From the NCBI GenBank assembly GCA_033549065.1, contig JAWSUE010000004.1:1-64000 (forward strand): DNA of 64,000 nt, given 5' to 3'. The notes beneath the pieces are model-generated. The model searched no databases and was not told the DNA's origin. It worked only from the letters and a program-made list of their open reading frames with translations. The position numbers and the translations under genes are program-made. Positions 877-39,795 of this stretch are shown here, in pieces. Origin of the DNA: Bacillota bacterium. GTDB taxonomy: Bacteria; Bacillota; Dethiobacteria; DTU022. Within the stretch, counting starts at the first letter, position 1. The number at the start of each line of letters is the position of its first letter.

Positions 877-1932
877 TTATTCTAAAGTATATTCAAAGTA
901 TGTTGCCCAATTCCCCTGATTTGTAAAGCGGTTTCCTGCGCCCCAGGCAGTTTCGATATTAATTTCTACACATGGTTCTTCAAGCCGAACCCAATCCCAA
1001 AATGTTCCATCTCCATTAGTATGTTGGAATCTTATCGTTTGTAATCCATCTGCTAGAGGTGAAACAATCACGGAATGTTCTACAAGAAGATATTGATCCA
1101 TAAACCATCCTTGGCCAGATGCTACACTTCCATTTGCAGTTACGATAGTTTCAGTTATCCCATCGCCACTAATAACTTTGCGTTCAAATGCAGAATTACC
1201 AGGTGACCATGAAATAGTTAGTTTGCCTCCGTAATTTAGTGCCCCGTCCCATTTAACTTCGAAATCGGTTGCGTAACCCCTAACTGCATTTGAATTAAAC
1301 GGAAACTCACTGGTAGGTGTAGTTCCAACTATAAATGGGTTGGTAAAAGGTGGTGTTTCCTGGGCTAAAGTTAGCCCCATAGTCGTCGGTCCAGCCGGGG
1401 CTCCCCAGTTGAATTCATCAGCATAATTGTATAGTAATCCTGTTGCCGGATCTCTTTCTTCTACATCGCCTATTTGCCATACTGTTTCCCAACAATCCAA
1501 GACTACTGTATTCTTGACCACCGCATGGGCAGCAACCAGAAGTTCATCACCTACCAGCCAACCATCTAAGGAAATTTCATAAAGATACTCCGGTACACAT
1601 CCATGGGGGTCACTGTAATCGAATTGGCCGGGAACAGGGTTTTGCTGACGGCCTGCCAGCGGAAATTCATCAAGAGATTTCCCAACATGGAGATGTGTTT
1701 CAGAAATGCACCAGCCATCCTCCAATGCACCTTCGCTTAATTTATATAGGACGAACAGGTTCTCACTGTCATTCCAGACAAAAACCGAACCGACTTCGAT
1801 ATTTTGCCCGGCATACAAGGGCACCTCCTGAGCGTCACCTGGTGGATCCATTGCTAATACTGATCCACCAAATATCCCAATCAACATCATTACTGCCAAA
1901 GTAACTGCCAGCCACTTGCTCTTTTTAATCAT
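877..1932 (-). CDS. Secreted protein of unknown function
   Basis: A 351-residue protein with a clear signal peptide: a Lys-rich start, a hydrophobic core and likely cleavage after Ala27 (SVLA). The mature N-terminal half contains an acidic, aromatic-rich stretch (VFVWNDSENLFVLYK, then GWCISETHLHVG) of a type I recall from bacterial surface and secreted proteins of unknown function. The extreme C-terminus (GNWATYFEYTLE) also looks like a conserved surface-protein motif. Several Cys residues in the first half could form disulfides. No catalytic motif is apparent. Start ATG has a strong GAGGAGG site. It converges on the M50 gene and is divergent from the histidine kinase. Confidence 0.75.
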   Translation of the reverse strand: MIKKSKWLAVTLAVMMLIGIFGGSVLAMDPPGDAQEVPLYAGQNIEVGSVFVWNDSENLFVLYKLSEGALEDGWCISETHLHVGKSLDEFPLAGRQQNPVPGQFDYSDPHGCVPEYLYEISLDGWLVGDELLVAAHAVVKNTVVLDCWETVWQIGDVEERDPATGLLYNYADEFNWGAPAGPTTMGLTLAQETPPFTNPFIVGTTPTSEFPFNSNAVRGYATDFEVKWDGALNYGGKLTISWSPGNSAFERKVISGDGITETIVTANGSVASGQGWFMDQYLLVEHSVIVSPLADGLQTIRFQHTNGDGTFWDWVRLEEPCVEINIETAWGAGNRFTNQGNWATYFEYTLE

Positions 1933-36570: not shown

Positions 36571-37779
36571 GTGCCAGATATGCCTGCTGTTACCATTCAG
36601 CCTGATATTTACTGGATCGGAGTCAATGATCACACAACAGATCTTTTTGAGGGATTGTGGCCGATAACCAGGGAAGGGGTATCTTACAACTCTTACTTGA
36701 TTAACAGCGATAAGAAAGCAATCGTTGACCTGGCCAAATCAACAAAGATAGAGGAATATATTGACCGGATCAATGAAATCGTTGAGGTGTCAAAGATCGA
36801 TTACATTATTCTCAACCACATGGAGCCTGACCACACCGGGGTCTTAAAGATATTAAGGGAACTCGCCCCTGATGCAGAGATTCTCTGTTCGGCTAAAGCC
36901 GTTCCAATGGTAGCTAATTTTTTTGGCATAACTGAAAAGGTTCGCATAGTAAGCGATGGAGAAGAACTCGACCTTGGTGGAAAAATGATTAAATTCTTCA
37001 TGACTCCTTTTATTCACTGGCCGGAGACAATGATGACCTACGAGCCAGATTCGCAAATATTATTTTCCTGCGACGGATTTGGAGGATACGGCGCTTTAAG
37101 AGGGGACATATTTGATGATGATTATACTGATTTTGACTTTTACGAAAAAGAAGCTCTACGTTATTACGCAAACATAGTCGCATCTTTCAGCGGTCAGGTA
37201 TTAAAAGCGATAGCCCGGCTATCTGAAATTCCAATTAAAATTATTGCTCCATCCCATGGATTGGTTTGGCGAAAAAAACCCGGCAGAATAATAGAGCTTT
37301 ATAAGAAATGGGCTGAATATGCCAACAATCATGGAGAACCTGCTGTAACAGTTCTATACGGATCAATGTATGGCAATACCGGGGCAATGATGGATTCTGT
37401 TCTGCAGGGTTTAACTGGCGCCGGTGTTGAAGTTGATATTTATGATGTGGCAAGAACACACGGCAGTTATATTCTCCCTTCACTCTGGTCAAAACAGGGT
37501 GTTATACTTGGGGTACCGACTTACGAAGCCCGGCTTTTTCCACCTGCTGCCCACCTCCTTGATCTGGCAGAAAGAAAGGCAATTAAAAACAAGAAGTTAG
37601 CCTATTTTGGAAGTTACGGTTGGTCGGGAGGAGCTCGCAGAGAACTGGACAAACGGATTGAAGGTTTGAAATGGGAGTTAGTTGAAGCTTTTGATTTTAT
37701 CGGGGGACCATCACCTGAGGATTTTAAAGAAGGTGAAGCCTTTGGCAAAAAATTTGGTGAAATGATCTTGAATCGTTAG
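36571..37779 (+). CDS. fprA: FprA-type flavodiiron protein
   Basis: 402 residues. The N-terminal metallo-beta-lactamase-like domain holds the diiron ligands: His83, Glu85, Asp87 and His88 in NHMEPDHTG, a His in PFIHWPE, an Asp in SCDGFGGYG and a His in APSHGLVW. The C-terminal flavodoxin domain (VTVLYGSMYGNTGAMMDSV) binds FMN. It reduces O2 to water and/or NO to N2O, protecting anaerobes. No rubredoxin domain is fused. GGGAGGTG site upstream. The gene is followed by the structured RNA, which has its own promoter. Confidence 0.95.
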   Translation: MPDMPAVTIQPDIYWIGVNDHTTDLFEGLWPITREGVSYNSYLINSDKKAIVDLAKSTKIEEYIDRINEIVEVSKIDYIILNHMEPDHTGVLKILRELAPDAEILCSAKAVPMVANFFGITEKVRIVSDGEELDLGGKMIKFFMTPFIHWPETMMTYEPDSQILFSCDGFGGYGALRGDIFDDDYTDFDFYEKEALRYYANIVASFSGQVLKAIARLSEIPIKIIAPSHGLVWRKKPGRIIELYKKWAEYANNHGEPAVTVLYGSMYGNTGAMMDSVLQGLTGAGVEVDIYDVARTHGSYILPSLWSKQGVILGVPTYEARLFPPAAHLLDLAERKAIKNKKLAYFGSYGWSGGARRELDKRIEGLKWELVEAFDFIGGPSPEDFKEGEAFGKKFGEMILNR

Positions 37780-37799: not shown

Positions 37800-37828
37800 T
37801 TGACAACTTTTTAGTAACATGCTAATAT
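37800..37828 (+). promoter_or_regulatory. Strong sigma-A promoter of the structured RNA
   Basis: TTGACA (37800-37805), exactly 17 nt, TAATAT (37823-37828). The predicted start (about 37834-37836) coincides with the first base of the RNA's closing stem. This is the best promoter match in the window. Confidence 0.8.
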
Positions 37829-37835
37829 ACTAGAT

Positions 37836-38148
37836 ACCAGGTTCTGAGGGACTGAAAGGTGAACCGGGCCCGGCTCAAAGGGAAAAACCGGAAAAAGAAA
37901 AGGGCGCAAGCCTGATTCGGAAGCCGGCGTTATCCAAGAGAACCAGGCAGTTGCAAGGAACTGAAGCGGAAAGGCAAAGTGAAGGGTTATACCGGAACGG
38001 AGCCGGGAAGCGCCGGAAACCGCAGCGCAGGAACACACAGAACCGGTCGGAGGCTGAAGGATCTCGTCTTTAGAGACGAAGGAATACAGCCGTAGATGGT
38101 CGGGAAAGTTGATTCTGCAGGTAAGCTAAAGGTCTGTTGGAACCTGGT
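37836..38148 (+). ncRNA. Large structured non-coding RNA, about 313 nt (raiA-class candidate)
   Basis: ACCAGGTTC (37836-37844) pairs perfectly with GAACCTGGT (38140-38148), closing the whole element. Inside are many G/A-rich internal loops and short stems: a GCAA tetraloop hairpin (37903-37912), CAGTT/AACTG (37948-37952/37959-37963), and a two-level arm GGCTG/CAGCC (38052-38056/38087-38091) enclosing TCGTCT-TTAG-AGACGA (38064-38079). Composition differs sharply from the AT-rich flanks, and no frame has coding character. It is not tmRNA, RNase P, SRP or 6S by their signatures. Size, lineage and purine-rich conserved-looking loops fit the raiA RNA class, but I could not test that. No clear terminator is seen just downstream. 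Confidence 0.82.
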
Positions 38149-38176
38149 TTAATTATGTACCGAAACTTTTCCCTTA

Positions 38177-38455
38177 TTATTTGCCTCCATCTTCAAGGCA
38201 AAAATACATCCCGGATAATTCATTTTCTTTGTATACCTCACACTTCCGGCAGATGCAGCCCTTTTCATCTTTTATACATTGACTCTTGCTGTAAGCACAG
38301 AACATGGTTTCGGCATGCAGCCTGTCATCTTTGGTATCCATCAATAGTATTATATTCCCCGGGATAGACATCATTTTGCAGGTAAATGAATAGGTAGGGC
38401 ATTTTTTACATAAACACTTTAGAAGGTTTTTCCTTGTCTTGGGCACTTTTTGCAT
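38177..38455 (-). CDS. DUF2769-like cysteine-rich protein
   Basis: 92 residues with ten Cys spread as CLCKKCPTYSFTC, FCAYSKSQC, GCICRKC and YFC, the pattern of the DUF2769 family, probably a metal-binding or FeS protein. The frame can extend to a TTG at 38473, but that codon lies before the GGAGGTGA site; ATG 38455 is correctly spaced. Function unknown. It converges on the structured RNA. Confidence 0.8.
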   Translation of the reverse strand: MQKVPKTRKNLLKCLCKKCPTYSFTCKMMSIPGNIILLMDTKDDRLHAETMFCAYSKSQCIKDEKGCICRKCEVYKENELSGMYFCLEDGGK

Positions 38456-38814
38456 ATAGATCACCTCCGACAATCTAATATATTTACTTATTCCTTAGTT
38501 TATTAGAATGTACAGATTGAACTGCTGCCTGTCAAGTGAACTTAAATTTATCAAAACAAAAAAGGCTTATCCGTGAGTTTCGTCGAAATGGTTCCATCTA
38601 AATTCTTATCATCGGGGGACCGATTATGAAAGACAAATACGAAGAGCCGAAATATCTGGATAAAAAGTATCCATTTAAATAGATAATCGTTCTCAACAGC
38701 CGGAGAGTATCAACATGATCTGTGGACTTACGATATCAGGTAATGCAAGGGTGTTAAAAGATATTTATGTTATTATAAAAACCCAATGATTCTATTAATC
38801 TATTACAGGGACTA
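38456..38814. other. Intergenic region, one possible 18-codon frame
   Basis: Mostly featureless. A short frame at 38626-38682 (MKDKYEEPKYLDKKYPFK) has a GGGGG element 7 nt upstream of its ATG, so it could encode a small charged peptide or be the residue of a lost gene. Nothing else is supportable. Confidence 0.3.
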
Positions 38815-39795
38815 ATGATGAATTTAAAAAGTTTGCGCAACCCAGACCTCTATCATGACCGGACAGAAAAAACCTTTTTTGAAGGTTGGTATTTTAAGCT
38901 GGTTGATGCCGGAATGGAAAATGCTTTTGCCTTTATACCCGGCATTTATTACAGCCCAAACAGAGATTACTCGCATTCATTTATTCAGATAGTTGACGGC
39001 ATGAAAAAAACTTATGATTACCTTCGGTTTCCTGTAGAGTCTTTCGGGACAGATAAAAGAATATTCTCTTTAAATATCGATAAAAACAAATTCGGAATAG
39101 AGGGTTTGAATTTTAAACTTGACCGCCCGGAAGTTAGTTTAATAGGTAAAATCAAATTCAGTAATCATAACAAATGGCCGGACAACTTTTTGAATCCGGG
39201 CAGTATGGGTTTTTATAACTATATCCCCAAAATGCAGTGCTACAGCCAGGTTTGTTCCATGGATTTTGATCTTTCAGGATCACTTGATTTCAAAGGACAA
39301 AACATAGATTTCGGAGGGGGCAAAGGTTACATTGAGAAAAACTGGGGATCTGCTTTTCCCTACTCATGGATCTGGATCCAATGCAACCATTTCCAAACGG
39401 CACGTGCCTCCTTTAGCTGTTCGATAGGCCACATTCCTTTTCTTTTCAGCAATTTCAGGGGATTTCTGGCCGGGCTCTACGTTAACAATGATTTTTATGA
39501 ATTTACTTCAATTAATCACAGTAAGATAGAGGTGGTCAGCAAAGGTAGCGATGTTATTATGAACTTCAATAATTCCCGACACAGATTACATGTGAAGTGT
39601 AAAACCGAATATGATAATTTTATATTGCTTAACGGACCCCGTGGAGATAAAATGATTCCCCTGGTCCAGGAAAACCTGCAGGGTAACTTACACCTGGAAT
39701 TAATAGATCTACAAACGGGGCAAACAATTATTAATGACTCTGGCAGATGTGCCGGAGTTGAATACGGTGGTAAGCAGATGATGGTGCTTGACTAA
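38815..39795 (+). CDS. Tocopherol-cyclase-family protein
   Basis: 326 residues. The opening EKTFFEGWYFKLVDAG, the PGIYYSP stretch, GYIEKNWGSAFPYSWIWIQCNHF in the middle and the closing GVEYGG block are the features of the tocopherol cyclase-like family (two lipocalin-like halves). In phototrophs the enzyme closes the chromanol ring; bacteria without tocopherol carry homologues of unknown function. It lies 33 nt upstream of larE in the same direction. Either of two adjacent ATG codons (38815, 38818) could start it. Confidence 0.88.
   Translation: MMNLKSLRNPDLYHDRTEKTFFEGWYFKLVDAGMENAFAFIPGIYYSPNRDYSHSFIQIVDGMKKTYDYLRFPVESFGTDKRIFSLNIDKNKFGIEGLNFKLDRPEVSLIGKIKFSNHNKWPDNFLNPGSMGFYNYIPKMQCYSQVCSMDFDLSGSLDFKGQNIDFGGGKGYIEKNWGSAFPYSWIWIQCNHFQTARASFSCSIGHIPFLFSNFRGFLAGLYVNNDFYEFTSINHSKIEVVSKGSDVIMNFNNSRHRLHVKCKTEYDNFILLNGPRGDKMIPLVQENLQGNLHLELIDLQTGQTIINDSGRCAGVEYGGKQMMVLD

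Follow-up and report, generated by a model that had tools for sequence, protein, structure and literature searches.

What kind of transcript fills the gap between a flavodiiron protein gene and its convergent neighbour in a bacterium of the class Dethiobacteria (phylum Bacillota), and with which proteins might it work? The window, a stretch of 64,000 nucleotides at the start of contig JAWSUE010000004.1, contains a structured RNA of 313 nucleotides at positions 37836–38148 of the forward strand, measured between the outermost bases of its closing helix P1. The element is defined by a covariance model, which matches 37833–38157 with 329 bits, and by covariation among homologues. The upstream gene (36571–37779, forward strand) encodes a flavodiiron protein with ODP beta-lactamase and flavodoxin domains (Pfam PF19583 and PF00258), and the downstream gene (38177–38473, reverse strand) encodes a DUF2769 protein (PF10967, E 1.2e-15). 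Both lie outside the RNA and provide context only. Elsewhere on the forward strand of the window are a c-di-GMP-I riboswitch (276–361, 87.1 bits) and a Pfam match to tocopherol cyclase (38815–39795, E 8.4e-32), which is unexpected for such an anaerobe.

Promoter, ends and fold of the RNA

The −35 hexamer TTGACA (37800–37805) and the −10 hexamer TAATAT (37823–37828), both on the forward strand and separated by 17 nucleotides, are located exactly where the first-pass annotation of the sequence had placed a consensus promoter. The −35 hexamer is exact in 91 of the 97 family copies, and the spacer is 17 nucleotides long in 91 of 97. In 80 of the 97 copies, a −10-like hexamer occupies a constant position, 10–11 nucleotides upstream of the GRTT of P1. 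The closing stem that had been proposed to bound an RNA of about 313 nucleotides is a perfect duplex of nine base pairs between ACCAGGTTC (37836–37844) and GAACCTGGT (38140–38148). The G+C content is 54% within the element versus 18% immediately upstream and 32% immediately downstream, in agreement with the contrast to AT-rich flanks noticed earlier.

The minimum free energy of the element is −114.5 kcal/mol (z −3.97), and none of 100 shuffled sequences is equally stable. An alignment of 27 copies (A3) yields a consensus of 65 pairs, 35 of which change on both sides; the mean for shuffled alignments is 19.0, and none of 500 shuffles reaches the observed number. In this alignment 95.7% of the cells are paired, and shifting the partner strand by one column lowers the value to 48%. 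The dense structure read from a single copy is matched by covariation among homologues; the first-pass annotation had named a lack of covariation, together with a lack of transcript, as grounds for abandoning its proposal. The insertions and deletions that separate homologues are nearly all 1–2 nucleotides long and break every reading frame; therefore, the element is not a reading frame, and the claim that it carries no gene holds. Open reading frames antisense to the element were rejected on the same grounds, since their likeness among homologues reflects only the conservation of the RNA.

The 5′ strand of P1 in the window copy, ACCAGGTTCTGAGGGACT (37836–37853; family consensus CCAGRTYCCGAGAGRY), is defined by pairing and compensatory changes in 93 distinct copies. 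It reads TGAGGG at the position of the family CGAGAG, of which it is a variant, and contributes G37848 to a G.G mismatch with position 38136. Domain 2 (37869–37947; consensus helices 3–6 of A3) consists of covarying helices that lead to a hairpin capped by the GCAA tetraloop at 37906–37909; this is the GNRA loop noted earlier, and its hairpin covaries. The outermost pairs of domain 2 are the least regular ones in the window copy. Domain 3 (37950–38026; helices 7–10) is purine-rich and built from short helices, with four pairs changed on both sides. Domain 4 (38043–38103; helices 11–13) is a long hairpin and the best-covarying internal domain, with 13 of its 18 pairs changed on both sides. The 3′ strand of P1, GGTCTGTTGGAACCTGGT (38131–38148), reads GGTCTGTTGG or GGCCTGTTGG in 76 of 97 copies. 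It is followed immediately by the T-rich tail TTAATTATG (38149–38157), which, from the T count in other copies, is the likely 3′ end and probably acts as a terminator. All of these features are on the forward strand.

A constant closing helix around a variable interior

The anatomy of the family was assessed in 97 usable copies with 93 distinct end pairs. Three features are near-constant over the 93 distinct copies: a sigma-A-type promoter at the first base of P1, P1 itself, and the U-rich tail. The core positions of P1 are paired in 99–100% of the distinct copies, and the core is nearly invariant, with CGAGAG on the 5′ side and CUGUUGG on the 3′ side arranged around the G.G mismatch (92 of 93). 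Most of the outer pairs have compensatory changes, with 26, 17, 15 and 9 double-sided cells at four positions. At least five of the nine nucleotides that follow P1 are T in 91 of the 97 copies.

The interior is conserved within subfamilies only, and the length over P1 ranges from about 150 to 410 nucleotides. The f6 and f5 forms have the same P1 closing different inner helices, which have weaker covariation support. Tandem pairs occur at three loci (L114, L116 and L303). Locus L301 of genome G129 (1066–1519, reverse strand) contains two head-to-tail units, the second being TAAGCTCCGAGAGGC...GGGGCTTA, which seems to follow the first directly, with no promoter between them. Natural forms of about 150 nucleotides that retain P1 (L307 1422–1588 in G058 and L119 345–510 in G041) offer useful minimal versions. 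A short relative of about 150 nucleotides in family f38 keeps CCGAGAGGUC, the closing helix with one mismatch, the promoter and the T-tail; its homology to the RNA family is likely, not proved. The f38 loci L364 (G127) and L367 (G204) each have two such relatives, one between the genes CLK and hpt described below and one after hpt, and the palindrome AAGTATAC(C)GGTATACTT precedes each of them. Two elements in the single-contig genome G093 (L106 3115–3410 and 4600–4928) consist of the 3′ half only, joined to identical unrelated 5′ sequence from which the usual promoter is absent; they look like truncated copies within a repeat.

Distribution of the family

The RNA is present in more than 60 genomes, including 25 of the 35 high-quality genomes from the order of the window genome. 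The window genome has four copies: that of the window, further ones found by BLASTN at 79% and 71% identity, and a fourth at C6:23437–23735 (117 bits) found with the covariance model R1. BLASTN identified copies in 22 of 60 relatives. The covariance-model search of related genomes that had been suggested with the original proposal gave matches to R1 in 45 of the 71 genomes searched from the order and in 58 of the 98 from the class, within which presence is patchy. An even sample of the phylum (398 genomes) contains ten convincing genomes with the RNA, of which two, G129 and G181, are not members of the class. The pattern of promoter and 5′ motif adds one more genome from this sample (G246). 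The match in G195 covers 34 nucleotides only and was attributed to chance.

The named relatives are mostly metagenome-assembled genomes labelled Syntrophomonadaceae, and many have names resembling a soda-lake sediment series, which we take to indicate soda-lake origin. A contig labelled Nitriliruptoria (L058) has a genuine copy of the RNA and is perhaps misbinned. The pattern match in a Microbacteriaceae contig (L064) is inside an ABC-transporter frame and was discarded as chance, and where viral contigs match the 3′ motif or the promoter pattern, the matches are either fortuitous or in coding sequence. A search of phages and plasmids gave no match, so that an origin from either was rejected.

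Comparison with known RNA classes

None of the 4227 models of Rfam 15 matches the window copy, including when the region was searched in sensitive mode, and none matches 18 close homologue loci, 20 more distant loci or the short relatives. The hits of the sensitive mode, Clostridiales-3 (11 bits), ST7-OT4_3 and TeloSII_ncR43, score far below the gathering thresholds and were dismissed as chance. The models include those of raiA, OLE, GOLLD, ROOL, HEARO and RNase P, for which a scan had been proposed at the outset, as well as tmRNA, SRP and group I and II introns. The reported absence of tmRNA, RNase P, SRP and 6S signatures is thereby upheld. The model of 6S RNA (RF00013) finds nothing in the region, and the genome has its own 6S RNA at C2:39435–39614 (97.8 bits).

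The best guess of the first-pass annotation, raiA, failed: RF03072, a model of 209 positions, does not match the region at a threshold as permissive as E ≤ 5, nor any of the homologues scanned. It also finds nothing in the whole genome, where its absence is weak evidence alone as the control genomes are silent too. RaiA, or ModT, is a heavily folded RNA of anaerobic Bacillota, a few hundred nucleotides long and transcribed as a separate unit, with a P1–P8 architecture, two pseudoknots (pk1 and pk2) and an unsolved molecular function (PMC11706538). The family described here shares the heavy folding, the separate transcription, the size range and the hosts; however, it differs from raiA in its closing element, in its length and in its link to hpt, which has not been reported for raiA. 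OLE RNA, for which RF01071 is presumably the Rfam model, is likewise a large structured RNA beside the gene of a protein partner (a candidate one in the present family), but it is about 600 nucleotides long as opposed to 313, gives no Rfam match here and has other neighbour genes. OLE occurs in Gram-positive extremophiles and anaerobes, and its partner OapA was found through the adjacent gene (PMC11332333). No OapA gene adjoins the present RNA, the neighbours of which are CLK and hpt, NuoEF, flavodiiron and DUF456 genes. The smtA motif, or 'Soda Lake RNA', comes from soda-lake bacteria, where this structured RNA of more than 350 nucleotides, the function of which is unknown, was found beside purH (PMC11109978). 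It resembles the family as a large soda-lake RNA near a purine gene, but is reported only from Thioalkalivibrio, which is Gram-negative. A strict pattern search among named genomes gave no Thioalkalivibrio match.

Y RNA was considered because the helix formed by its two ends is conserved and is a protein site, its interior is variable and it has a 3′ U tail; it was rejected, since a Ro60/TROVE protein (PF05731) is absent from the 22 genomes searched, with a positive control genome. A diverged member of one of these families (raiA, OLE, 6S, RNase P, tmRNA, ROOL, GOLLD, HEARO or Y RNA) could explain the size and abundance of helices, which recall raiA and OLE, and the closing helix with U tail, which recalls Y RNA. 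The silence of Rfam 15 over every homologue scanned, the normal 6S RNA elsewhere in the genome and the missing Ro60 make this explanation extremely improbable. A cis-acting riboswitch or attenuator was also rejected as a general description, because most copies are convergent to their neighbours or separate from them, and only the short f38 form precedes hpt. The features by which membership of the family is judged were found: the promoter at the start of P1, CGAGAG and CUGUUGG with the G.G mismatch, and the T-rich tail. A search of the openly accessible literature, main texts only, returned nothing on a link of any RNA with hpt or with the organisms concerned. We rate the RNA as a new class, the fallback that the first-pass annotation had allowed for, with smtA set apart by description only. 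Its nearest published counterparts in kind are raiA, OLE and smtA; like OLE and raiA, it is a large RNA with extensive structure and a function still to be solved.

Neighbouring genes CLK and HPRT2

In seven families, five in the class (f1, f5, f6, f7 and f8) and two outside it (f40 and f54), usually one copy of the RNA per genome adjoins hpt together with the gene of a cytidylate-kinase-like protein, CLK. The RNA is usually convergent at the 3′ end of hpt, and in f5 it is also found divergent beside the 5′ end of CLK. In most of the hpt-linked cases, about 0–190 nucleotides separate the 3′ ends of the RNA and the gene. The genes outside the CLK–hpt operon vary between families (atpD, a ROK kinase, tRNAs and others). 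Other copies lie between aminotransferase and NuoEF genes in many f1 genomes, beside the flavodiiron gene of the window, or beside DUF456, and some (for example L309 and L311) have neither CLK nor hpt in the stretch read. Genome G129 has a second CLK–hpt locus with its own RNA (L356, contig C71), so that the RNA accompanies the duplicated locus. A fluoride riboswitch (L023 224–296, forward strand, 41.8 bits) is located near one f1 copy.

The hpt product meets the HGPRTase model TIGR01203. It is a second paralogue of the purine-salvage enzyme HPRT (hypoxanthine phosphoribosyltransferase), named HPRT2, that retains the catalytic residues E104, D105 and D108; the RNA-free genomes have an ordinary HPRT, which is about 50% identical. 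Residues 3–165 of CLK correspond to Cytidylate_kin2 and are followed by an extra C-terminal domain, which is better conserved than the kinase part and contains the motifs SEEEFA...YEP...PDFYLP...E-LTT. The C-terminal domain is present in 38 of the 398 phylum genomes, with hpt adjacent at every locus read (for example L066:1601–1930, forward strand). It has no significant match in Pfam and weakly resembles phage endonuclease I (PF05367, E 0.077; PDB 3cae, E 0.14). A PD-(D/E)xK fold, with threonine in place of the usual lysine of ExK, is a lead from these sequence similarities. An AlphaFold2 model of CLK computed from 12 close sequences has a mean pLDDT of 40 and was set aside.

Co-occurrence of the RNA with CLK and HPRT2

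The RNA-linked HPRTs form a single clade with support of 100/100, in which 45 of 46 rows have an adjacent RNA, a result that is not an independent test, since most of the rows were collected through the RNA. When the CLK-linked HPRTs of other families are added to the tree, the f38 sequences are the neighbours of this clade. A search for hpt in 36 genomes that had been scored RNA-negative found HPRT2 in four of them. An overlooked RNA was present beside HPRT2 in two (G075 and G086), a copy was cut by the contig end in a third (G034), and none was found beside HPRT2 in the fourth (G096). Among the 15 genomes of the same class in the phylum sample, nine have both the C-terminal domain of CLK and the promoter and 5′ motif of the RNA, and the other six have neither. 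These two results come closer to independent tests, though both carry less weight because the genomes share ancestry.

CLK with hpt is also found in about ten further families of the phylum, at loci with no recognisable RNA. Therefore, either the operon can do without the RNA, or the RNA of those families is too diverged to be recognised. Such operons weigh most heavily against the partnership being obligatory. The linkage does not imply direct contact, as the genes and the RNA can be inherited as a single block among relatives that are not independent.

Proposed mechanism and its alternatives

The reading that we propose, and to which we give about an even chance, is that the RNA belongs to a new trans-acting class that works with CLK and HPRT2 through a ribonucleoprotein held at P1 and responsive to PRPP or purine nucleotides. 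Every copy would have a strong sigma-A-type promoter of its own, from which transcription begins with the initial base of P1. The ends of the transcript would then pair to form P1, which together with the U-rich tail closes the molecule and probably terminates transcription. P1 is the likely protein-binding handle, because it persists while the interior, a putative subfamily-specific cargo, is replaced. The protein bound to it may be HPRT2 or CLK, because these are linked to the RNA. The resulting complex would respond to PRPP or purine nucleotides, given what enzymes of the HPRT2 and CLK type bind. Action in trans is suggested by the up to four copies per genome, scattered at unrelated loci, and extra copies such as that of the window would provide more of the same RNA. 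PyrR, a nucleotide-sensing phosphoribosyltransferase that binds structured RNA, in its case the cis leaders of pyr mRNAs, serves as a working model only. HPRT2 would share with PyrR the phosphoribosyltransferase fold only; it belongs to the HPRT family, and its presumed RNA is a separate gene.

The scattered copies could instead belong to an RNA of the OLE, raiA or 6S sort, with a global function in stress, transcription, the membrane or the ribosome, that is unrelated to HPRT2 and merely inherited with it in one block. Copies at the flavodiiron, aminotransferase/NuoEF and DUF456 sites and the CLK–hpt loci without a recognisable RNA fit such a function. However, RNA and CLK are jointly present or absent in 15 of 15 genomes of the class, HPRT2 predicted RNAs that had been overlooked, and the neighbours outside the operon are not kept, which makes this explanation rather unlikely. 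The proximity of the 3′ ends of RNA and hpt2, and the short forms at L364 and L367 with their own promoter and T-tail immediately 5′ of hpt, would suit a regulator of the adjacent hpt2, acting by antisense or convergent transcription or, in the short f38 form, as an attenuator. We consider such regulation quite improbable, since the orientation varies (convergent, divergent beside CLK, or on the same strand), paralogues including the window copy adjoin other genes, and the interior has no conserved sequence complementary to a target.

The conserved motifs in the C-terminal domain of CLK and the weak resemblance of this domain to endonuclease I of phage, an enzyme of the PD-(D/E)xK type, together with the patchy presence within the class, raise the prospect of a mobile or defence-type ribonucleoprotein, with the C-terminal domain as nuclease and the RNA as its cofactor. 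Nevertheless, neither the similarity to PF05367 nor that to 3cae reaches an accepted cut-off, a threonine (ExT) replaces the catalytic lysine that is usual in ExK, phage and plasmid matches are lacking, inheritance looks vertical, and HPRT2 appears from its residues to be catalytically intact; such a system is very improbable. A further idea, speculative and on balance unlikely, is that the RNA, HPRT2 and CLK with its possible PD-(D/E)xK-type domain form a ribonucleoprotein enzyme on the RNA handle, which would link purine status to an RNA-dependent activity.

Significance

Large structured bacterial RNAs outside the known families are rare. For most of them, OLE, raiA, ROOL and GOLLD being examples, the obstacle has been the absence of a lead to a partner. 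Two candidate partners accompany the family described here, the kinase-like CLK and a dedicated paralogue of HPRT, both co-present and co-absent with the RNA. The function of the family can therefore be tested directly. Should HPRT2 or CLK bind P1, the family would represent a new RNA–protein system connecting purine salvage and RNA.
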